Part shown: positions 41,177-51,488 of the stretch, piece by piece | How the letters are laid out: each line of letters opens with the position of its first letter | How positions within the stretch are numbered: position 1 is the stretch's first letter | DNA from: Sphingomonas astaxanthinifaciens DSM 22298 | Lineage (GTDB): Bacteria > Pseudomonadota > Alphaproteobacteria > Sphingomonadales > Sphingomonadaceae | Direction of reading: 5' to 3' | DNA: 64,000 bases | Assembly (NCBI RefSeq): GCF_000711715.1 | Contig: NZ_JONN01000002.1 | Span: forward strand, 248,001-312,000 | Notes under the pieces: generated by a model | What the model was told of the DNA's origin: nothing | Databases searched by the model: none | Seen by the model: only the letters and a program-made list of their open reading frames with translations | Program-made: the position numbers and the translations under genes

Positions 41177-43045
41177 ATGGCGAAATTGGGCTATTTGTTG
41201 GCGGGGTGCGTGCTGGCGGTCAGTCCGGGGGCCGCGCGGGCGAGCGAGCCGGCACCGCCACCGGCACCGGCGCCGGCACCGGCACTCTCCGCGTCGCGCC
41301 TGGGCGAGGTGCGGGTGCGGATCGATCCCGGGGTCGGCGAGGAGGCGGCGGAGATCCTGAGCCTGCTGGGCAATTTTCCGTTCGTCACCGTCGGCGAGCC
41401 CGCGGACTATCTCGTCACCACCAAGCCCGACTTTCCGCTCGACCTCGAGCTCGTCGACCTGCGCGATCCGCCCGATCGCTGGCGCGATGTCACCAAGACC
41501 TTCGAGCCCGTCGTGCCGCGCCCGCGAACCTGGCCGGTCGGCAACCTGCGCGACGAGGCGACAGTGCCGCGCCTCCAACGCCTGCTGGTCGCGGCGGGAC
41601 GGACCCGGGCGCTGCTCGACCGCAGCTTCGCCGACACCAACGGGGTCGAGATCTGCCTGGTGATCAAGATCTTCGGGACCGACTGCAAGCCGCTCGGGCA
41701 GAAGGGGACCACCGCGTTCGTCCGGTTCGAAGACGATGCCGAGGTACGGGTGACCAACCGCTCGGGCGGCCCGCGCTTCGTCACCGCCATGGCCGCCGAC
41801 GGGACGCTGGGGCTCGACTGGGCAGGGATCGACGCCGAGGCGCCCGTGCGGAGGTTGGCGCCGGGCGAGAGCATCGTCTTTCCGGCCCGGATGGTGATCC
41901 GGTCCGAGGCAGAGGACGATCCGCGTTTCCTCATCCTCACCTCGGCCGCGCCGATCGACGTCGCCGCGATCGACCATCTCGATCCGCTCGGCGACTGGCC
42001 CGACTGCACGGCCGATGGGCAGAAGGAGTGCGTCCGGCCCGAGCCGGGACTGGTGCTCGCCGACGACCTTGCGGTGCGCTCGGTCCAGGTGTTGATCGAT
42101 CCCGAGCCCGTGGTCGCCATGGGCAACGCAATGGACGCCACCGCGATGATGGCGACCTGGGCCGCGCAATTCTATTCGGTGCTGCCCTATACGCCCGCCG
42201 AGATCGCCGCCGACGCCAAGCTGCCCGAGGACCAGAGCCAGTTCCTGAAGCTGAGGAGCTACGAGGAGCGCCAGCATCGCTGCGGGGCGACGCTGATCGC
42301 GCCGATGATCGTGATGACCGCCGCCCATTGCGTTGCCGACGGCCAATATGCCGGCAATGGGCTGGCCAAGGTGCTGGTCCAGCGGCGGGTCCGGATGGGC
42401 TCGCGCAAGCTCGGCAAGGAGGGCACGACCTATGCGATCGCAGGGGTCGCGGTGCACGCGGGCTATGCTCCCGGAGACCCGCGCAACGATGTCGCGCTGC
42501 TGCTGCTCGCGGCCGACCGGGGCTCGGTGGGCAGGATGCCCGCGCCGCTCGCCACCGCGACCCGGCCGCTTGCCGCTGGGGTCAGGGCCAATGCCTTCGG
42601 CTGGGGCCTGACCGGTGCGGTGTCGCCGACCGGGAGCATCATCATGCCCGTGTCCGGCCGCCTCAACCGCAATGCCGAGACGCTGCAATATGGCGAACTC
42701 GCCTCGGTCAGCCTCGACGCCTGCCGCCGAAAGCTCGCCGACAAGGTGACCCCGGGCATGGTCTGCATGTTCCCGCCGACCGCGCTGGCCGGGCGCGCGA
42801 GCGGGGACGGGGTGTTCACCTGCCGGGGCGACAGTGGCGGGCCGCTGGTACGCCGGGTTTCCGGCCGCGACGAACTGGTCGGGGTCGTCAGCTGGTCGAT
42901 GGGCTGCGGCTACAAGGATTATCCCTCGGTATTCGCCGACGTCGGCTATTTCGCGCGCTGGATCGACGCGGCGAAGGTCGCGCTCAAGCCGGGTGCGGCG
43001 ATCCGGGTCGCGGATCCTGCCCGGCCGAACGCGGCCTCCCGATAG
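41177..43045 (+). CDS. Secreted trypsin-like (S1) serine protease with large N-terminal region
   Basis: 622 residues. Signal peptide AKLGYLLAGCVLAVSPGAARA is followed by a Pro/Ala linker. Residues ~40-350 form a beta-rich region with no recognised fold (DYLVTTKPDFPLDLELVDLR). A chymotrypsin-fold domain follows with the triad MTAAHC, NDVALLLLA and CRGDSGGPL, all intact, so probably active. The periplasmic or secreted enzyme may process envelope or foreign proteins. The gene is divergent from none: it follows the kinase operon after 67 bp on the same strand. Confidence 0.9.
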   Translation: MAKLGYLLAGCVLAVSPGAARASEPAPPPAPAPAPALSASRLGEVRVRIDPGVGEEAAEILSLLGNFPFVTVGEPADYLVTTKPDFPLDLELVDLRDPPDRWRDVTKTFEPVVPRPRTWPVGNLRDEATVPRLQRLLVAAGRTRALLDRSFADTNGVEICLVIKIFGTDCKPLGQKGTTAFVRFEDDAEVRVTNRSGGPRFVTAMAADGTLGLDWAGIDAEAPVRRLAPGESIVFPARMVIRSEAEDDPRFLILTSAAPIDVAAIDHLDPLGDWPDCTADGQKECVRPEPGLVLADDLAVRSVQVLIDPEPVVAMGNAMDATAMMATWAAQFYSVLPYTPAEIAADAKLPEDQSQFLKLRSYEERQHRCGATLIAPMIVMTAAHCVADGQYAGNGLAKVLVQRRVRMGSRKLGKEGTTYAIAGVAVHAGYAPGDPRNDVALLLLAADRGSVGRMPAPLATATRPLAAGVRANAFGWGLTGAVSPTGSIIMPVSGRLNRNAETLQYGELASVSLDACRRKLADKVTPGMVCMFPPTALAGRASGDGVFTCRGDSGGPLVRRVSGRDELVGVVSWSMGCGYKDYPSVFADVGYFARWIDAAKVALKPGAAIRVADPARPNAASR

Positions 43046-43387: not shown

Positions 43388-45319
43388 TTATACGAAATGA
43401 AGCGCGCGCAATAGCGCCTTGTACCGCGGGGCCGCGTGAAGCGGCGCGAGGAACGGATCGCTGAGAAGATAGACCAGCCCCGAATCCTGCACCTTCACCG
43501 CCTTGTCGAGCGCATCGAGCGCGGGCTCGACCTTGCCCCATTGCGCGAGCACCTGCGCCTGCTGGTAAAGGCCGTTGTCGCCTTCGTCGCGCACCAATTG
43601 GTCGAACGCGGCCGAGGCTGCACGCTGGTTGCCCCGGCGGATGGCCAGGATCGCCTCGCCGGGCAGCTTGAGCAGCGCCGAGCGTTCCCGCGCATATTCG
43701 GCGGCGGCCTCGTCGAGCTGGCCCGAGAGCAGCAGCGCGTTGGCGATGTCGCCATGCGCGCCGCCGAGGTCGGGATTGAGCTCGAGCGCGCGGCGCGCGG
43801 CGGCGATTGCGCCGACGTAATCGCCGCTCGCGAAACGGATCCTCCCCTGCGTCTTGGCGAGCGCGGGGTTGAGCGGATCGAGCGCCACCGCCCGCTCGAT
43901 CGCGGGGCCGGCAATGGCGAAGTTGCGGCGGCGGCCGTGATACAGGGCATAGAGGTTGAGCACCTCGGCACTGCCCGCACCATAGTCGTGCGCCTTGGCG
44001 AAGGGGGCGTCGGCGGCGAGCACGTCCATCTTGCCGTAGAACAGCGCATAGCCGAGCGCGGCATAGCCCTCGGCATATTCGGGCGCGCCCGAAATCGCCT
44101 CACGCGCTTCGGTAATGGCCTCGTCGTAGAGCAGCCGTCGCTCGGCGGTCTCGGCATATTGGTTGGCGATGACGGCGAGCGCGCGCGAGCGGGCGGCGCG
44201 CGCGGCGGCATAATCGGGATCGAGCCGGACCGCCTCGGTGAACTGCGCCAGCGCCGCGCGGTCCGAGGCTTCGTCGCGCTGGCTGTCGAACAGGTCCTTG
44301 CCGCGCAGATAGGCCTCGAAGGCGCTGATGTTGCGCGTGTCGCCGCTCTGCGCATGCGCGTCCTTGGCGCCAAGCTCGGCGGCGAGCGCGCTGCTGACGG
44401 TCTCCGCGACCTGGCTCTGGAGCGCGAGGAGATTGGTGAGCGGGCCGTCGAAGCTCTGCGTCCACTTGCTGAATCCGGTCGCGCCGTCGATCAGCTCGAC
44501 CGCGATGCGGATCTGCTGCGCGTCCATCCGGACATTGCCGTCGAGGAGGTTGGCGACCTTCAACTTGCGTGCAATGTCGGCGCTGCTCGCCTCGCGGTCG
44601 CGGAAGACGTTGGACGAGGCCTGGCCGACCACGCTGAGAAGCGGATTGCGGCTGAGGCGCGCACGAAGCTCGGCGGCGAGACCGTCGGACAGATAGGTCT
44701 TGCTCGCGTCGCCCGAGAGGTTCTCGAACGGCAGGACGGCGAGGCTGTTGGCGCCTGCGCTGCTTGCTCCGAACCAGCGCCAGCCCGCAAAGCCCGCGCC
44801 CGCGACCGCCAGCGCCGAGCCGGCGATGAGCGCGGTCCGCCGGCTGACGGGGAGGGAGCCCGCGTTCTTGCGTGCCTGTGGTTCGGGCTGGTGGCCCATG
44901 ATCTCGGCGATGGCGGCGATCGCGCGCAGCATCCCCGGGCTGCCGCGCCGGCCGCGCCCCTTGGAGATGTCGATGCACTGGATCTGGCGGAACCCCAGCG
45001 GCGGTTCGGTGCCGTCGATCGACAGCGGCACCAGCCGGTGATGGTCGCGGCCATAGCCCGCCTCGTCCTTGACCCAGTCCGACTGGCCCGCCTCGGCCGA
45101 CCACAGGACGACCACCGCGTCGGCGCCTTCGAGCGCGGTGCTGATGCTCGACCCGAAGCGGTGACCACCCGGGATCAGCGCATCCCACCAGACCTTGAAG
45201 CCGGCCTCCTCAAGGGTCTTGATGACCGCATAAGCGGTTCGCTGGTCGCGCCGGCAATAGCTCAGGAAGACGTAGCGTTCGTGGGGTACCCGCTCGCCCT
45301 CATCCTCGTGCCGGTTCAT
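43388..45319 (-). CDS. TIR-TolB-like-TPR membrane protein
   Basis: 643 residues. TIR domain (about 14-140): RYVFLSYCRRDQRTAY, GFKVWWDALIPGG, VVVLWSAEAG and SDWVKDEA, with a catalytic-type Glu86. One helix (163-181) anchors it, placing the rest outside the cytoplasm or on the other face. Residues 192-320 are TolB/FlgO-like (SLAVLPFENLSGD, GLAAELRARLS), followed by about eight TPR-like helical hairpins to residue 640. The same TolB-TPR module occurs with adenylate cyclases. TIR enzymes cleave NAD+ or form cyclic ADP-ribose signals; the conserved Glu argues for activity. Shares a 292-bp divergent region with the TIR-FHA gene. Confidence 0.88.
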   Translation of the reverse strand: MNRHEDEGERVPHERYVFLSYCRRDQRTAYAVIKTLEEAGFKVWWDALIPGGHRFGSSISTALEGADAVVVLWSAEAGQSDWVKDEAGYGRDHHRLVPLSIDGTEPPLGFRQIQCIDISKGRGRRGSPGMLRAIAAIAEIMGHQPEPQARKNAGSLPVSRRTALIAGSALAVAGAGFAGWRWFGASSAGANSLAVLPFENLSGDASKTYLSDGLAAELRARLSRNPLLSVVGQASSNVFRDREASSADIARKLKVANLLDGNVRMDAQQIRIAVELIDGATGFSKWTQSFDGPLTNLLALQSQVAETVSSALAAELGAKDAHAQSGDTRNISAFEAYLRGKDLFDSQRDEASDRAALAQFTEAVRLDPDYAAARAARSRALAVIANQYAETAERRLLYDEAITEAREAISGAPEYAEGYAALGYALFYGKMDVLAADAPFAKAHDYGAGSAEVLNLYALYHGRRRNFAIAGPAIERAVALDPLNPALAKTQGRIRFASGDYVGAIAAARRALELNPDLGGAHGDIANALLLSGQLDEAAAEYARERSALLKLPGEAILAIRRGNQRAASAAFDQLVRDEGDNGLYQQAQVLAQWGKVEPALDALDKAVKVQDSGLVYLLSDPFLAPLHAAPRYKALLRALHFV

Positions 45320-45611: not shown

Positions 45612-46520
45612 TTGTCAGGGACGGACATCTTCATCTCCTACAGCCGGGCGGACCGACCGGTGGCCAAGCATTTGGCCCAAAGGTTCGAGGGCGAGGGATT
45701 CACCGTCTGGTGGGATGCCGCGCTCCATTCGGGCGAAACCTTCGACGAGGTGATCGAGCGCAACCTGCGCGCGGCCCGGGCGGTGGTCGTGCTGTGGTCG
45801 CCGCGCTCGGTGGTGTCGCGCTGGGTCCGCGCCGAGGCGACGCTCGCCGACCGGCTGGGCAAGCTGGCTCCCGTGGTGATCGAGGAGTGCGAGCGGCCGA
45901 TCATCTTCCAGCTGACCCACACCACCGACCTCACCGAATGGACCGGCAATGCCGACGACCCCGTCTGGCGGCGCCTCATCGAGGACCTCCAGCGCGCGAC
46001 CCGGAGCAGCGGCCCAGGCGCCGCCCCGGCCCCCGCGCCCGCCGCGCGGCGTTTCGATCCTTCGGCGGTCGCCGCACCGGCACCGGCCCGGTCGCGCGAG
46101 CCCGAGCCCGAGCCCGTTCGCGCCGCGCGCGCTGCGGTGGTGGTCGAAGAGGTGATGCCGGAAACCACCCAGTTCCATCTGCGCGACGATGCGCTCGAAC
46201 TGCTCGGCGCCGATTTCCATGCGCTCGAGATCATCGTCGGCGGGCGGATGGAGAAGCGCTTCATCGTGCCGACCGCGGGGCTCAGGATCGGGCGCACGCC
46301 GCCCTCCGATGTGATCCTCGCCGATCCCATGGTGTCGCGCGCGCATTGCATCGTCGAGCTGAAGGACGACCGGCTTCAGGTCACGGACCTGCGCTCGACC
46401 AACGGGACATTCGTCGACGGTCATAAGGTCGAGGGCAAGGCCTTCCTGCCGGTGGGTTCGATCCTCAAGGTGGGCAATGTCGAGCTCACCCACGTGGTGA
46501 GGAAGCCGCAGGACCGCTGA
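45612..46520 (+). CDS. TIR-FHA protein with GarA-like phosphorylation motif
   Basis: 302 residues from TTG 45612 (GGAG ten bases upstream). TIR (about 4-125): DIFISYSRADRPVAKHLA, TVWWDAALHSGETF, VVVLWSPRSV and SRWVRAEA with catalytic-type Glu75. A Pro/Ala-rich linker (130-180) leads to EVMPETTQFHLRDD (180-192), then an FHA domain (222-296) with GLRIGRTPPSD, VSRAHC (Ser242, His245) and STNGTFVDG (Asn264). FHA domains bind phosphothreonine peptides. The ETTQ motif just before the FHA resembles GarA/OdhI, where the kinase target ETT peptide folds back onto the FHA. No membrane segment. Operon with the SLOG gene (26-bp gap). Confidence 0.9.
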   Translation: MSGTDIFISYSRADRPVAKHLAQRFEGEGFTVWWDAALHSGETFDEVIERNLRAARAVVVLWSPRSVVSRWVRAEATLADRLGKLAPVVIEECERPIIFQLTHTTDLTEWTGNADDPVWRRLIEDLQRATRSSGPGAAPAPAPAARRFDPSAVAAPAPARSREPEPEPVRAARAAVVVEEVMPETTQFHLRDDALELLGADFHALEIIVGGRMEKRFIVPTAGLRIGRTPPSDVILADPMVSRAHCIVELKDDRLQVTDLRSTNGTFVDGHKVEGKAFLPVGSILKVGNVELTHVVRKPQDR

Positions 46521-46546
46521 CGGGTTTCGAGGGGGGGCAGACAGCG

Positions 46547-48337
46547 TTGAGAGAACACCGACCGCCGCGGCCGCGGATCACGCTCAACATCGGGATCACC
46601 GGGCATCGCGCATCGGTCCTTTCGCCAGAGGTGGTCGAACGCACCTCGCCGATCATCGAGCGGGTCTTCGCGGACCTGCGCGCGGCGACCGAATTTCTTC
46701 ACGTGGAGAACCGCGACCTGTTCTCGGCCGAGCCGCCGCAGCTGCGCCTGCACACGCCGCTTGCGACCGGTGCCGACCAGATGGCCGCGACGGTGGCGCG
46801 CCGCACGGGCTTCGAGGTTCGCGCGCTGCTTCCGCTGGCCGCCGACGATTATGACGCCGACTTCAAGCGCGGCCGCGAGAAGCGCGAATTCGCCCAGCAT
46901 CTCGAGCTTGCGCACGAAGTGTTCGCGCTGCCGTCCGAAGGCGCGGACCGCAACGCCGCCTACGTCCAGGTCGGGCGCGCGGTGGTCGCGAGCTGCGACG
47001 TCCTGATCGCGGTGTGGGACGGGCGGGACGGTAACGGACCGGGCGGGACCGCTTATGTCGTCGACCTGGCTCTCAACCTGTCGGTGCCGGTGATCCATGT
47101 CCCGATCGACCGCGACACCGGCACGCCGGGCGAACCGCGCCTCATTTTCGGGCGCGACATCATCGACTATTCGGCGCGGCCGCTCGAGGGGCGCGAGGAC
47201 GTGACCGAGCTTGTCGCCGACGTCCTGCTGCCGCGCGACACGTCGGAGCGCGGCCATGCGCTCGAATATTTCGAGGAGCAGGAAAAGACGGCGAACTGGC
47301 GGATCGAATATCCGCTGCTCTTGTCGCTGCTGCGGGTGAAGAAGCTGCCCAAACGCTTCTGGCACCAGACCAGCATCGCCGACGACATCGCCTACGAATG
47401 GAAGGACGTGCGCGATCCCGGTCCCGAGGAGACGCGGCGGCCGTTCGCCTGGTCCTATGGCTGGGCGAACTTCCTTGCCATTCGCTATGCCCAGCTGTTC
47501 CGCAGCGGGCACATCACCAATTACGTGCTCTCGGCACTGGCGGTGAACCTCGCGCTGTTCGGGCTGATCGCGCCGGCCATCAAGATCTACCTCGTCATGG
47601 CCGAACTCGGGGTGATCGGGCTGCTCTTCTGCAACACCAATGCCGGCACGCAGGGCGACTGGCACCGCAAGTGGCTGCAATATCGCTATCTCGCCGAGAC
47701 CTTGCGGCCCTTCCTCTACCTCAAGCGCACCGGCCTCGTCGGGCCGCCGTTCCGCAACGAATATGCCCATGCGCCGATGCACCGGCGGGGCGGGGCCGAC
47801 TGGACGCGCTGGTACGCCGCGGCGGTGTGGCGGCAGATGGGCTGGCCCAATGGCGAGCTGACGAGCGAGGGCATCCGGCAGCTTGCCACCGACGCGGTGA
47901 CCGAGCAGCTGCTGCCGCAGGCCGCCTATCACAAGGTCAATGCCGAGCGGATGCACAAGCTCGACCACCGGCTTCACGAGATCGGCAATTTCCTGATGGG
48001 CGCGGTGATCGCTGCCTGCTTCCTCTACCTGATCGGCTATTTCGTCATGCACGACTGGACCAAGTCGCTGACCGGGCCCTTCATCTTCCTCACCGCGGGA
48101 CTACCGGCGATCGGCGCGGCGGTGTTCGGGATGCGCGGCCACGGCGAGCATCTGCTCGCGGCCAGCCGCTCGGCGCATACGGTCGAGGCGCTGACGGGCA
48201 ATGTCACGCGGCTGCGGCAGGCGACCCAGCTCGATGCCCTCGCGCGCGAACTCGAGGCAAGCGCGGGGACGATGCTCGCCGACCTCAACGAATGGACCGC
48301 GAGCTATTCCGAACGCTCGCTGGAAATCCCCGCCTAG
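46547..48337 (+). CDS. SLOG-domain membrane protein (SLATT-like four-helix effector)
   Basis: 596 residues from TTG 46547 behind a GAGGGGGGG site. N-terminal Rossmann-like SLOG domain: LNIGITGHRASV (GxTGHR, 16-21), LATGADQMAA (73-81), ASCDVLIAVWDG. Then a helical region, TM helices about 325-343 and 347-365, the WLQYRYLAETLR motif (376-387), and TM helices about 482-500 and 512-530, with a soluble C-terminus. SLOG domains sense nucleotide-derived ligands; the YRYLAE-type motif and paired helices resemble SLATT membrane effectors. In Thoeris the SLOG part of ThsA binds the signal made by a TIR protein, the same pair of domains as here. The last 4 bp overlap the convergent kinase gene. Confidence 0.82.
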   Translation: MREHRPPRPRITLNIGITGHRASVLSPEVVERTSPIIERVFADLRAATEFLHVENRDLFSAEPPQLRLHTPLATGADQMAATVARRTGFEVRALLPLAADDYDADFKRGREKREFAQHLELAHEVFALPSEGADRNAAYVQVGRAVVASCDVLIAVWDGRDGNGPGGTAYVVDLALNLSVPVIHVPIDRDTGTPGEPRLIFGRDIIDYSARPLEGREDVTELVADVLLPRDTSERGHALEYFEEQEKTANWRIEYPLLLSLLRVKKLPKRFWHQTSIADDIAYEWKDVRDPGPEETRRPFAWSYGWANFLAIRYAQLFRSGHITNYVLSALAVNLALFGLIAPAIKIYLVMAELGVIGLLFCNTNAGTQGDWHRKWLQYRYLAETLRPFLYLKRTGLVGPPFRNEYAHAPMHRRGGADWTRWYAAAVWRQMGWPNGELTSEGIRQLATDAVTEQLLPQAAYHKVNAERMHKLDHRLHEIGNFLMGAVIAACFLYLIGYFVMHDWTKSLTGPFIFLTAGLPAIGAAVFGMRGHGEHLLAASRSAHTVEALTGNVTRLRQATQLDALARELEASAGTMLADLNEWTASYSERSLEIPA

Positions 48338-50694
48338 CGCGACGCGCCCGACGAGCGCTTGACCAGGAAGACGAGGTAGGCGCGGGTCTGCTTGGCCTGC
48401 TTGATCAGGCCGTCGGCCTGCCGGTCCGAGCGCACCCCGCGGAAGCTGTCCTTCAAGGTCGCGAGGCTGTTGTCGTAGGTCCGCGCCAGCGCCGCATTCT
48501 GCTTGAGCATGTCGTAGGCCGCGCGTTCCTCGGGCGTGCTTCCGGGCCGCGCGCGCTCGCCCATCCGGATCACCTGCCGGGCCATGTCGCGGCCGTCGCT
48601 GACGATGCCGTTGAAGGTCGCGGCGGTCGAGGGCGAGAGCGTGTCCGCCGATGCGGTGGTGGCGGCGGGCGCCGCGGCGACCGTGGTCGGCTGCGCGGTG
48701 CGCGCGGTGGTCGTCGCGCCGATCGTCGCCTTGGCCGCATTGGCGGCGTCGAGCTTGCGCTTCTCGCGGGCGAGCTGCTCGGCCTGCGCCAGCCGCTGCT
48801 GGTCGCCGCCGTCGAGATTGGCGATGGCGAGCGCTGCCCCCGAAAAGGCCTTCCACGAAGCGAGCGACTGGCGCGCGCTCGCCAGCGCGAGGCGCGGATC
48901 GGTCGCGGCGCGGGCCTGTGCGCTGGCGCTGCGCAGCGCGTCGACGTTCTTCCTGAGTTCGGCGACCGCCAACTGGCGTTCCTGCGGCAGGGTCGCGGGG
49001 TCGGCATTGATCCAGCTCGCCTTGCCCGCGATCTGTCCGGTGCGCTCCTCGACCGACTTGAACAAGGCGTCGGCGAAATTGCCATAGACCGCGCGCGCCC
49101 GCTCGCCCGCCTCGGCGTCGCTGGGGGGCGAGGTGGTGAGGCCGGCAGCGAAATTCGTGACCGGCGCGAGCAGCGCCTCGGGGACCGCGGCGGCCTTGGC
49201 CTCGGCGTCGAGCGCCTGCGTGCCTTCGGCGATCTCGGCGACGGGCACCACCACCGGCTCGGCCGAGGAGGGGAGGACTTGGATGGTGTCGTTGGCGGCC
49301 GCGGGACCCGACGAGCCCCGGGTCAGCGCCCAGCCGCCACCCACCACCACGACCAGCGCCGCCGCCGCACCGCCGATGAGGACGGGCTTGGAGACGCCCT
49401 TCTTCTGCGCGGGGTCATTGTCAGGCTTGCCGGTCGCGGCGGCCTTTTTAGCGGCGATCCGGTCGGCCGCGGCCTTGTCGTCGACCGGGGAGGACTTGGG
49501 TTCGCCCGGGGCTGCCGTCTTGGCTGCGGCGGCAGTCCCGGCAGCGGCAGCGGCAGCCGCCGCGACGGGCGCGACCGGCGCGTCCTTGGCTTCGACCGGC
49601 TCCTCGGTCTTGGCGGCGCCGCCGCCCTTCTTGGTCGCGTGGGTATGGCCCGCGCGCTTGAACTCGGCTTGTTCGGGGTGGTCGGGGACGCTGGTGACCG
49701 GCTGGAATCCCTCGGCCACGGGCGCCACCGGAACGATCGATTCCGACGTCGTGTCGAACGGCACCACGCGGGTGACCTCGCCGTCATCCTCCTCGGCCTC
49801 GGTATCCTCGGCGGCGTCGAACATCGCCAGCCAGTCCGAGATCGACTGCGGGCGCTCGTCGGGGCGGACCCCCATGGCAGCGTCGACCGCGGCGAGGAAG
49901 CGGCGGCTGTAGCCCGGCCAGCTGCCGCTCGCGAGCTTGTCGCCCGCGCCGCCATGCATCCGCTCGAGCACCTCGGCGGGCTTGGTCCCGGTGATGCATT
50001 CGTAGAGCACCACGCCGAGCGCGTAGATGTCGGTCCACGGCCCCTGCGGGAAGGTCTTCACATATTGTTCGATCGCCGCATAGGGCGGGGTGTGGAAGGT
50101 GACCTTGGTGCTGGTCGCCTCGCCGGTCTCAAACCGGGCCGAGCCGAAGTCGATCAGGACCGGGCGCCCGCTGTCGTTGATGAGGATGTTGGGCGGCTTG
50201 ATGTCGCGGTGGAGGACGCCGACGCGGTGCGCGCGCTCGAGCCCCTCGGCGATTGGCTTGATCAGCGCGATGAGGCTCCGCTCGTTCCAGCGCTGGCCCT
50301 GTTTCAGCAGCCGCGACAGCGACATGCCGTCCTCGAAGTCCATCACCATGTAAGCGGTGCCGTGGATCTCGAACAGGCTGCGGACGCTGACGATATTGGG
50401 GTGACGCGACGGCGTGGAGAGGTTCCAGAGAAGCTTGGCCTCCTCGACGAACTTCTTGAGCCCGAGCGCGTGCACTTCCTCGGCATCGCTGTCGATCGGG
50501 ACGACCGTCGCCTCGGCATCGCGCTCGCTGATCGAGCTCGGGAAATATTCTTTGATGGCAACCAGTTCGTTGAAGTAGATGCCGCGGCCCTTGTAGACGA
50601 TGCCGAAACCGCCGACCCCGAGAACTTCTTCCAGACGCCACTCGCGAAGCACGGTGCCGGGCGGGAGTGCCTTGGTGCTATACGCCTTGTTCAA
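48334..50694 (-). CDS. Membrane Ser/Thr protein kinase
   Basis: 786 residues. Kinase domain 18-290: glycine loop GVGGFGIVYKG, VAIKEYFPSSI (Lys48), LHRDIKPPNILI (Asp164) and IDFGSARF (Asp182), all intact. An Ala/Lys-rich linker follows, then a single helix (about 438-457), and a helical periplasmic region with Ala-rich repeats. The EYFP motif after the lysine is typical of kinases encoded beside PP2C and FHA genes. ATG 50694; divergent from the PP2C gene by 92 bp, convergent with the SLOG gene (4-bp overlap). Predicted to phosphorylate the TIR-FHA protein (inference). Confidence 0.92.
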   Translation of the reverse strand: MNKAYSTKALPPGTVLREWRLEEVLGVGGFGIVYKGRGIYFNELVAIKEYFPSSISERDAEATVVPIDSDAEEVHALGLKKFVEEAKLLWNLSTPSRHPNIVSVRSLFEIHGTAYMVMDFEDGMSLSRLLKQGQRWNERSLIALIKPIAEGLERAHRVGVLHRDIKPPNILINDSGRPVLIDFGSARFETGEATSTKVTFHTPPYAAIEQYVKTFPQGPWTDIYALGVVLYECITGTKPAEVLERMHGGAGDKLASGSWPGYSRRFLAAVDAAMGVRPDERPQSISDWLAMFDAAEDTEAEEDDGEVTRVVPFDTTSESIVPVAPVAEGFQPVTSVPDHPEQAEFKRAGHTHATKKGGGAAKTEEPVEAKDAPVAPVAAAAAAAAGTAAAAKTAAPGEPKSSPVDDKAAADRIAAKKAAATGKPDNDPAQKKGVSKPVLIGGAAAALVVVVGGGWALTRGSSGPAAANDTIQVLPSSAEPVVVPVAEIAEGTQALDAEAKAAAVPEALLAPVTNFAAGLTTSPPSDAEAGERARAVYGNFADALFKSVEERTGQIAGKASWINADPATLPQERQLAVAELRKNVDALRSASAQARAATDPRLALASARQSLASWKAFSGAALAIANLDGGDQQRLAQAEQLAREKRKLDAANAAKATIGATTTARTAQPTTVAAAPAATTASADTLSPSTAATFNGIVSDGRDMARQVIRMGERARPGSTPEERAAYDMLKQNAALARTYDNSLATLKDSFRGVRSDRQADGLIKQAKQTRAYLVFLVKRSSGASR

Positions 50695-50786: not shown

Positions 50787-51488
50787 ATGCCGTTCGATAC
50801 CGTGAGCCGCACCCATGTCGGCCTCAAGCGCCCGATCAACGAGGACAATTTCCTCGTCCGCGCGGAGGCCGGACTGTTCGCGGTCGCCGACGGCATGGGC
50901 GGGCATGACGCGGGCGAGGTCGCGAGCGCGCGGATCGTCGCCGCGCTCGAGGAGCTGGAAGCGGTCTCGCCGGACGGCGTGGTCGCCGCGCTCGAGGGCG
51001 TGAACAAGGACCTGCGCGAACTTGCCGCGGGGACCGGCAAGCATACCATCGGCAGCACCGTCGTCGGCTATCTCTTCGACGGGGCCGGGGGCGTGACCTG
51101 TTTCTGGGCGGGGGACAGCCGCGCCTATCTCCATCGCGACGGCCAGCTCCTCCAGGTCAGCCGCGACCACAGCCTGGTGCAGGAACTGGTCGACGCCGGG
51201 ATGATCGATCCCGAGCGCGCCGAGGGCCATCCCAACGGCAATGTCATCACCCGCGCAGTCGGTGCGGCGGACCAGCTCCGGGTCGACCGGGTCGAGGGCG
51301 ACGCGCGCCCCGGCGACCTGTTCCTGCTCGCGTCCGACGGAGTGACCCGGGTCGTTCCCGACGACGAACTGGTCAAGGACCTCGCCGGCGACCGGCCGCT
51401 GGGCGAGATTGCCGACGGCCTCGTCTGGAAGGTGCTCGGCCGCGGCGCGCCCGACAATCTTACGCTGGTGCTGGTCCGCGTCCTCTAG
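50787..51488 (+). CDS. PP2C-family protein phosphatase
   Basis: 233 residues. All PP2C metal and catalytic motifs are present: RTHVGLKRPINEDNFLV, AVADGMGGHDAGEVAS, FWAGDSRAYLHRDG, SRDHSLVQELV, FLLASDGVTRVVPDDE and GRGAPDNLTLVLV. It removes phosphate from Ser/Thr and would counter the divergent kinase. ATG 50787 with a GGGGGG-type site is chosen over an upstream in-frame start that would overlap the kinase promoter. It overlaps the convergent membrane gene by 29 bp. Confidence 0.94.
   Translation: MPFDTVSRTHVGLKRPINEDNFLVRAEAGLFAVADGMGGHDAGEVASARIVAALEELEAVSPDGVVAALEGVNKDLRELAAGTGKHTIGSTVVGYLFDGAGGVTCFWAGDSRAYLHRDGQLLQVSRDHSLVQELVDAGMIDPERAEGHPNGNVITRAVGAADQLRVDRVEGDARPGDLFLLASDGVTRVVPDDELVKDLAGDRPLGEIADGLVWKVLGRGAPDNLTLVLVRVL

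Follow-up and report, generated by a model that had tools for sequence, protein, structure and literature searches.

We describe four neighbouring genes of Sphingomonas astaxanthinifaciens DSM 22298 that lie in a 64,000-nucleotide stretch of contig NZ_JONN01000002.1 (the window, in whose numbering coordinates are given below unless a locus or genome handle precedes them). They encode a TIR-FHA protein, a SLOG-SLATT membrane protein, a transmembrane Ser/Thr protein kinase and a PP2C-type phosphatase. On balance these genes probably form one signalling unit, Thoeris-like and gated by protein phosphorylation. A sequence-only reading of the window had picked out the first two genes as a possible Thoeris-like signalling pair, and the two open reading frames do lie where it placed them, on the same strand and 26 bp apart. 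The kinase and phosphatase half was absent from that reading, and it makes sense of the FHA domain on the TIR protein.

The TIR-FHA protein (45612..46520, forward strand) has 302 residues from a TTG start and is defined by its open reading frame and profile matches. Its TIR domain, residues 6-122 (45627..45977, forward), matches TIR_2 at 85 bits against a cut-off of 28. Its FHA domain, residues 225-288 (46284..46475, forward; located by profile, alignment and fold search), scores 62 bits against a cut-off of 20.7. Both domains had been named from the letters alone, and both are borne out. So is the putative catalytic glutamate, Glu75 within SRWVRAE (codon 45834..45836, forward): the alignment column is Glu in 88 of 88 rows, of which 4 come from the window and 84 from partner TIR proteins at 71 distinct loci. 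The TIR-FHA protein has the glutamate expected of a TIR NADase, NAD+ cleavage itself being a prediction, and an NAD+ hydrolase, AbTIR, is among the solved sequence relatives of the domain. TIR domains can also serve as scaffolds, and with the activity of the window TIR predicted, the FHA and TIR domains might do no more than assemble a membrane complex. The glutamate kept in every partner row and the hydrolase among the solved relatives speak against such a role for the TIR, which we consider very improbable.

Residues G227, R228, S242, R243, H245 and S262-G265, which we take to have the phosphothreonine-binding roles of FHA domains, are invariant in nine of nine proteins, and the GR, S-R-x-H and S-T-N-G elements of a phosphothreonine-binding FHA domain are all present. 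GarA and OdhI are among the nearest solved FHA relatives both by sequence and by fold; these are FHA proteins that work as phospho-switches under Ser/Thr kinase control. Directly before the FHA domain, 16 of 21 TIR-FHA proteins have a Thr-Gln motif. In the window this is the linker motif ETTQF, with Thr186 (codon 46167..46169, forward) as a candidate kinase target. The structure model of the whole protein, built from nine sequences, is modest (predicted local distance difference test, pLDDT, 74.5; predicted template-modelling score, pTM, 0.44), and the best 50 of 1593 matches in its fold search all concern the FHA part.

The second gene (46547..48337, forward) encodes a protein of 596 residues with a TTG start, the proposed effector, defined by its open reading frame, family profiles and an AlphaFold model. 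That model is confident (pLDDT 91.4, pTM 0.90) and shows a Rossmann-like domain followed by two helical hairpins. The SLOG head occupies approximately residues 12-230 (46580..47236, forward), with the motif series GITGHR...GADQ...WDG...GGT, as judged from alignments, the model and the fold search; it has both the fold and the motifs of the SLOG superfamily. The first membrane hairpin covers residues 294-370 (47426..47656, forward), the region where relatives match DUF4231 (13 of 16 aligned family members, best 8e-8). The second covers residues 440-557 (47864..48217, forward) and corresponds to the SLATT_1 matches. Four membrane helices had been proposed; the two modelled hairpins agree with this, and a plain hydropathy scan puts three membrane segments above threshold, not four.

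Profile evidence for this protein comes from its family. The window protein itself matches nothing in Pfam and scores 18.4 bits with NCBIfam SLATT_1, under the 41-bit cut-off. Among 55 aligned family proteins, SLATT_1 is matched by 50 at E <=0.1 (best 1.4e-16), with SLATT_3 matching 14 and SLATT_4 matching 7 at the same threshold, and a relative on a Caballeronia plasmid clears the SLATT_1 cut-off at 45.3 bits. SLOG families are weakly matched among 16 members: DprA in three (best 0.003), YpsA in two (0.025) and YAcAr in two (0.039). When PDB sequences were searched with the family alignment, three matches came out, all at chance level. Foldseek against solved structures placed YpsA at the top of 649 matches, with a template-modelling (TM) score of 0.71 of the target and a probability of 1.00. 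Within the best 50 of the 649, DprA, ShosA, TM1055 and Moco carrier protein appear at probabilities of 0.95-1.00, lower-probability unrelated folds are interspersed among the SLOG-type ones, and the targets far longer than the SLOG part are ABC transporters, G-protein-coupled receptors and similar proteins with TM-scores <=0.2. Judging from target sizes and TM-scores, the fold matches appear to cover the SLOG head, and nothing credible would cover the membrane part. The family profile matches, the confident model and the Foldseek ranking are the grounds on which we assign the second protein, by prediction, as a SLOG head on two SLATT-type membrane hairpins. The LOG catalytic motif is PGGxGTxxE. 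No glutamate follows GGT at the corresponding position in the SLOG-SLATT alignments, and the head would therefore fit a SLOG domain that binds its ligand and not an enzymatic one.

The distribution of the SLOG-SLATT protein was examined in 61 genomes, 37 of the genus and 24 others, at a threshold of E 1e-3, with genes called by a home-made codon-usage caller. The protein was found in 29 of the 37 genus genomes and in none of the 24 others. Those 29 genomes hold 30 loci, including one stretch with the SLOG gene alone (L037) and one with a split SLOG gene (L050, the same as L126). In 28 of the 30 there is a TIR gene no more than 5 kb from SLOG, and in 27 of these 28 the two are on the same strand. 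From the 153 TIR_2 matches in the 37 genomes, the chance expectation is about 2% on average, and higher in TIR-rich genomes. TIR_2 matches occur in 29 of 29 SLOG-positive genus genomes and in 2 of the 8 SLOG-negative ones, two of which are less than 80% complete (Fisher 1.2e-5, kinship ignored). Four genomes (G018, G030, G033, G034) have 12-18 TIR_2 matches each, many in frames of 600-700 residues like the one at 43388-45319 of the window and some in tandem.

A scan of GTDB with the SLOG-SLATT alignment found 110 relatives, of which 80 were kept; a single-protein query had given none. Hosts include Sphingomonas, Erythrobacter, Croceicoccus, Phenylobacterium, Lysobacter and Shewanella. Of the 80 loci, 56 have a TIR gene no more than 5 kb away, as do 43 of the 57 with more than 3 kb of sequence on both sides. 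Removal of 14 loci already in the genus set leaves 43 of 66, or 34 of the 47 with room. The TIR matches are concentrated close to the SLOG gene: where at least 8 kb is available on both sides, 49 GTDB loci have 37 matches at 0-5 kb versus 6 at 5-10 kb, and 17 genus loci have 16 versus 0. The pairing of TIR with the SLOG membrane protein, which the sequence-only reading could only suggest from one locus, is real.

The TIR partner is not always of the same type. Besides TIR-FHA, partners include TIR-TPR proteins of about 600-730 residues, a second TIR-TPR type that resembles the protein at 43388-45319 and, in Shewanella, a TIR-WD40-like protein. On a tree of the SLOG-SLATT proteins the partner type switches many times, the starred branches alone forcing 13 TIR-TPR and 3 TIR-FHA changes. 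This tree holds 90 of 91 rows (L126 was dropped as too short), was made by a quick method and has several long branches, with loci at contig ends scored as having no partner. Gene order varies too. The Caballeronia plasmid has SLOG-SLATT, TIR and nSTAND1-WD40 in that order, and on a Novosphingobium plasmid the TIR gene is divergent from SLOG-SLATT, about 125 bp away.

The SLOG side is exchanged as well. In G014 the place of the SLOG gene upstream of TIR-FHA is taken by a protein that matches TPR-S at 47 bits and a nucleotidyl-cyclase domain at 31 bits, and whose SLOG-like middle scores 27 bits to a home-made SLOG profile; in G030 the same place holds a SLOG-alone protein of 235 residues. In four of four genomes from three other genera, a homologue of the TPR-S/cyclase protein is encoded 0.6-0.8 kb downstream of a same-strand TIR-TPR gene, and two of the four homologues match the SLOG profile. 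The Caballeronia plasmid has another, with a cyclase match just below cut-off, at a distance of 3 kb from SLOG-SLATT. These TPR-S proteins with nucleotidyl cyclase and SLOG-like middle, beside TIR genes (L140:10532-12310; L169-L172; L173:2929-4695), may constitute a second TIR-linked output. What looks constant is TIR with SLOG, the attachments to each being variable.

Next to the four genes the window encodes a further, divergent TIR-TPR protein (43388..45319, reverse), which is not conserved along with them and is a possible second TIR input; similar TIR-TPR proteins are SLOG partners elsewhere. As a core part of the unit it was rejected, being the best match of no gene in L031-L034, the four closest relatives with long flanks. 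Between TIR-TPR and SLOG-SLATT genes there are often one or two small fast-changing proteins per locus with a DPII-like stretch near the end (L073:9039-9542 and similar); the one scanned had no Pfam match.

The other half of the unit begins where the SLOG-SLATT gene ends. The transmembrane Ser/Thr kinase gene (48334..50694, reverse; 786 residues; assigned by profile matches, hydropathy and alignment) lies tail to tail with the SLOG-SLATT gene, the two overlapping by 4 bp at the SLOG-SLATT stop. The PP2C-type phosphatase gene (50787..51488, forward; profile matches and gene call) is divergent from the kinase gene and encodes 233 residues as called, its open reading frame opening at 50667. The kinase has a single membrane helix and a C-terminal tail beyond it that is partly conserved. 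Between the kinase domain and the helix, all 19 aligned kinases have an acidic-x-Thr-[RKQ] motif, in the window EVTRV with Thr308 (codon 49771..49773, reverse), a candidate docking site for the FHA domain.

Kinase and FHA occur together. At E <=1e-60 the kinase is found in exactly 12 of the 37 genus genomes, and these are the ones with full-length TIR-FHA. The two genes are within about 3.5 kb of each other in 11 of the 12, the exception being G030, where they are on separate contigs with the break apparently inside the kinase gene. Outside the genus, one of the 24 genomes gave weaker matches, to the kinase domain only. Neither kinase nor PP2C lies within 5 kb of SLOG in any of 80 distinct loci without FHA. 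FHA loci from the GTDB set have PP2C in nine of nine and kinase in seven of nine; those from the genus set have both in five of seven, the remaining two stretches being too short to include them. Because of this co-occurrence, the invariant FHA residues, the closeness to GarA and OdhI and the recurring threonine motifs, a phospho-switch from kinase to FHA is likely, as read from sequence.

From what was computed, namely the domains, the linkage of the genes, the exchange of partners, the invariance of the catalytic and FHA residues and the recurrence of candidate phospho-motifs, we infer a series of signalling steps, their direction and the membrane orientation of the parts. The kinase, which has a C-terminal region beyond the membrane, would sense an envelope or infection-related cue. 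It would then phosphorylate its own threonines, at the acidic-x-TR motif, and/or the TIR-FHA linker at its TQ motif. Binding of phosphothreonine by the FHA domain, in cis as in GarA and OdhI or on the kinase, would cluster or release the TIR domain. The TIR domain, acting through Glu75, would turn NAD+ into a nucleotide of ADP-ribose type, to which the SLOG head may bind; the SLATT-type helices would thereupon open a pore or cluster, and the cell would stop or die. PP2C would reset the switch. A broader form of this model, held tentatively and at well below even probability, has a receptor kinase switching a TIR NAD+-signal generator through FHA, with modular SLOG readers (SLOG-SLATT, SLOG alone, SLOG-like cyclase) leading to membrane collapse or to a second messenger. 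Such a pathway would count as a new Thoeris-like type in which the input is phosphorylation and the outputs can be exchanged.

As to purpose, the probability that the system serves anti-phage or cell-death immunity is near one half. In favour of defence are the patchy spread, with TIR-FHA in 12 of 37 genus genomes, the SLOG-SLATT/TIR pairs on the Caballeronia and Novosphingobium plasmids, and two loci at which a STAND NTPase is a neighbour. In Tritonibacter an ankyrin-repeat nSTAND1 NTPase is directly upstream of SLOG-SLATT (L117:1302-5975), and there no TIR match lies within 5 kb. In G031, a close relative, the cluster has a DrmD-like helicase and a PDC-S68 protein beside it, and in L109 SLOG-SLATT has an Mrr-type endonuclease directly upstream. 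The sequence-only reading had offered, as an alternative, a housekeeping stress pathway of sphingomonads. The evidence argues against a core sphingomonad pathway, because TIR-FHA has this limited spread and related pairs occur in Lysobacter, in Phenylobacterium and on the two plasmids.

Several results weigh against the four-gene unit or against its role in defence. The SLOG-SLATT protein of the window, taken alone, passes no curated Pfam or NCBIfam cut-off, so the SLOG and SLATT identity given in the sequence-only reading holds at the family level. Its fold matches are no better than E 1.6e-3, none reaching 0.001. There is no TIR within 5 kb in 24 of the 80 GTDB loci, in 14 of the 57 with more than 3 kb on both sides and in 13 of the 47 such loci that are non-repeated. 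The counts of TIR, SLOG, kinase, PP2C and channel genes use home-made profiles built from the counted loci themselves. The TQ motif is absent from L032 and L033, which are among the closest relatives, and from L037 and L141, and reads TAF in L051. L051 and L053 have TIR-FHA and PP2C with no kinase within 5 kb. Four of the 12 genus genomes (G001, G018, G033 and G034, the contig in G033 being only 8.2 kb long) have TIR-FHA, kinase and PP2C with no SLOG-SLATT neighbour, and so does G014.

In those four genomes SLOG-SLATT sits elsewhere, with a TIR gene within 5 kb of it in G001, G033 and G034 and not in G018. Such separate placement would be expected of two adjoining but independent modules: kinase, PP2C and TIR-FHA would have as output the TIR's own depletion of NAD+, and SLOG-SLATT would answer other TIRs. 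Nonetheless, 15 tree rows from the genus and from Erythrobacteraceae have TIR-FHA linked to SLOG-SLATT, including G004, where the SLOG-SLATT is of another clade, and the place is filled by a different SLOG-type protein in G014 and G030. We regard two separate modules as unlikely.

The surroundings of the cluster are mostly no defence island. PADLOC was run on 77 neighbours, out of 102 collected, that represent 14 of the 15 FHA loci, and few of the 77 match defence models. With 25 of 48 families listed at 1e-15, the G031 locus alone contributes two proteins with 8 and 38 family matches, and mad3 is matched by two members. The argument from defence islands was dropped, the PADLOC neighbour evidence being too weak to lean on. 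There was no match in 50,697 phage records. IMG/VR yielded 17 relatives, one covering most of the SLOG-SLATT protein and the rest the SLOG part only; that one has no TIR-profile match in its 14 kb. The TIR-TPR version has an ispG-like gene, named by eye, as a stable neighbour in 10 of 20 and 17 of 80 loci. PEP-CTERM proteins accompany some TIR-TPR/SLOG-SLATT pairs (L069:6903-8015, confirmed by Pfam; L052:4035-4556 and L056:9424-9972, both by eye). Neither the ispG-like gene nor the PEP-CTERM proteins have an obvious link to defence.

Also counted against a defence role is a two-transmembrane (2TM) K+-channel-like gene, which 23 of 96 distinct loci have no further than 5 kb from SLOG (for example L031:10422-10871); in 20 of them it runs tail to tail with the SLOG gene. 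Its product scores 48.5 bits with Ion_trans_2 in L053, and the gene is present even at some loci with no nearby TIR. It is absent from the window, and the window's genome gave no match to it. These channel-like and PEP-CTERM neighbours, the stable ispG-like neighbour in many relatives, the scarcity of defence neighbours and the form of the kinase (a single membrane helix, then a tail conserved in part) would suit an envelope-stress or programmed-death pathway other than anti-phage immunity. In such a pathway the kinase would read the state of wall or membrane, and TIR and SLOG-SLATT would adjust ion flow or kill damaged cells. The patchy occurrence of TIR-FHA, the plasmid-borne pairs, one with an nSTAND1 NTPase, and the DrmD-type and PDC-S68 neighbours in G031 speak against it, and we hold it to be somewhat unlikely. 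As a separate observation, a trypsin-like protease of 622 residues is encoded near the TIR genes of the window (41177-43045), and another trypsin-like protein is beside SLOG-SLATT in L065.

The phosphorylation-gated four-gene unit that we prefer is compared here with Thoeris and other known systems. The cluster was not filed as Thoeris, because the window proteins fail the models tested: ThsB, ThcA and ThcB4 models fail, and no SIR2, macro or caspase domain is among the matches listed. In logic, by analogy, it is best read as working like Thoeris, with TIR and SLOG roles that would follow type I and a membrane output that would follow type II. Of the Thoeris-like pair proposed by the sequence-only reading, it is the logic that survives and the membership that does not.

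Type I Thoeris consists of the TIR protein ThsB and the SIR2-SLOG protein ThsA, encoded together, according to the part of PMC11204291 available. Common to both systems is a TIR enzyme encoded with a SLOG-carrying effector. They differ in that the effector here has membrane helices and no SIR2 (profile scans found no SIR2 match in the SLOG-SLATT protein), the TIR carries FHA, and a kinase and a phosphatase stand alongside. The window TIR scores 18.4 bits with ThsB_TIR against a cut-off of 21.2, and 21.4 bits (E 2.9e-5, partial) with the ThsB model of PADLOC. Partner TIRs elsewhere pass ThsB_TIR in three of three scanned (27.4, 36.2 and 21.8 bits), and the TIR partner of a SLOG-cyclase homologue scores 31.9 bits.

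Type II Thoeris, as portions of PMC11204291 and PMC12847820 describe it, joins TIR to TM-macro ThsA, a nucleotide-sensing membrane effector. Type II and the present system share TIR with a membrane effector bearing a nucleotide sensor, which is macro there and SLOG here; profile scans of the SLOG-SLATT protein gave no macro match. Type III has TIR and a SLOG protein as well, its ThcA having 188-203 residues and no SLATT part. Among 299 genomes of the phylum, NCBIfam ThcB4 occurs in 6, with a separate SLOG cluster3 ThcA in three of three loci scanned. ThcB4 reaches 33.9 bits with the window proteins against a cut-off of 220, and ThcA from NCBIfam has no match to the SLOG-SLATT protein at E <=1 or to its 55 aligned relatives at E <=0.1. 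For type IV, no caspase match is listed for five proteins of the window (P0001-P0005).

A phrase search of the literature, with most subscription journals outside its coverage, found no TIR-FHA protein or SLOG-SLATT fusion described. SLATT domains have been predicted, in the parts of PMC9503650 and PMC7159879 at hand, to be nucleotide-responsive pores or membrane effectors regulated by ADP-ribose derivatives, and 2TM SLATT proteins beside TIR are described there. Those TIR and 2TM SLATT pairs, from firmicute phages and GAP1-N1 systems as far as these portions go, resemble the present pair in having a SLATT effector adjoining TIR. They differ in being 2TM; the present protein has two hairpins joined to a SLOG head, and FHA, kinase and PP2C come in addition. 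The SLOG-SLATT output would offer a test case for the nucleotide-responsive SLATT pores predicted in the available part of PMC7159879, and the family's repeated exchanges of partner, on the TIR as on the SLOG side, are natural experiments on the signal used by each pair.

The GarA and OdhI switch of kinase and FHA resembles the present system in its closest FHA structures and in the threonine motif just before FHA; the output domain here is TIR. In Thoeris, the sensing of infection is assigned to the TIR proteins themselves, in the portions of PMC11204291 and PMC12847820 that were available. The input here is apparently a receptor kinase and a phosphatase read by FHA, which would make the trigger directly manipulable through phospho-mutants and deletion of the kinase.

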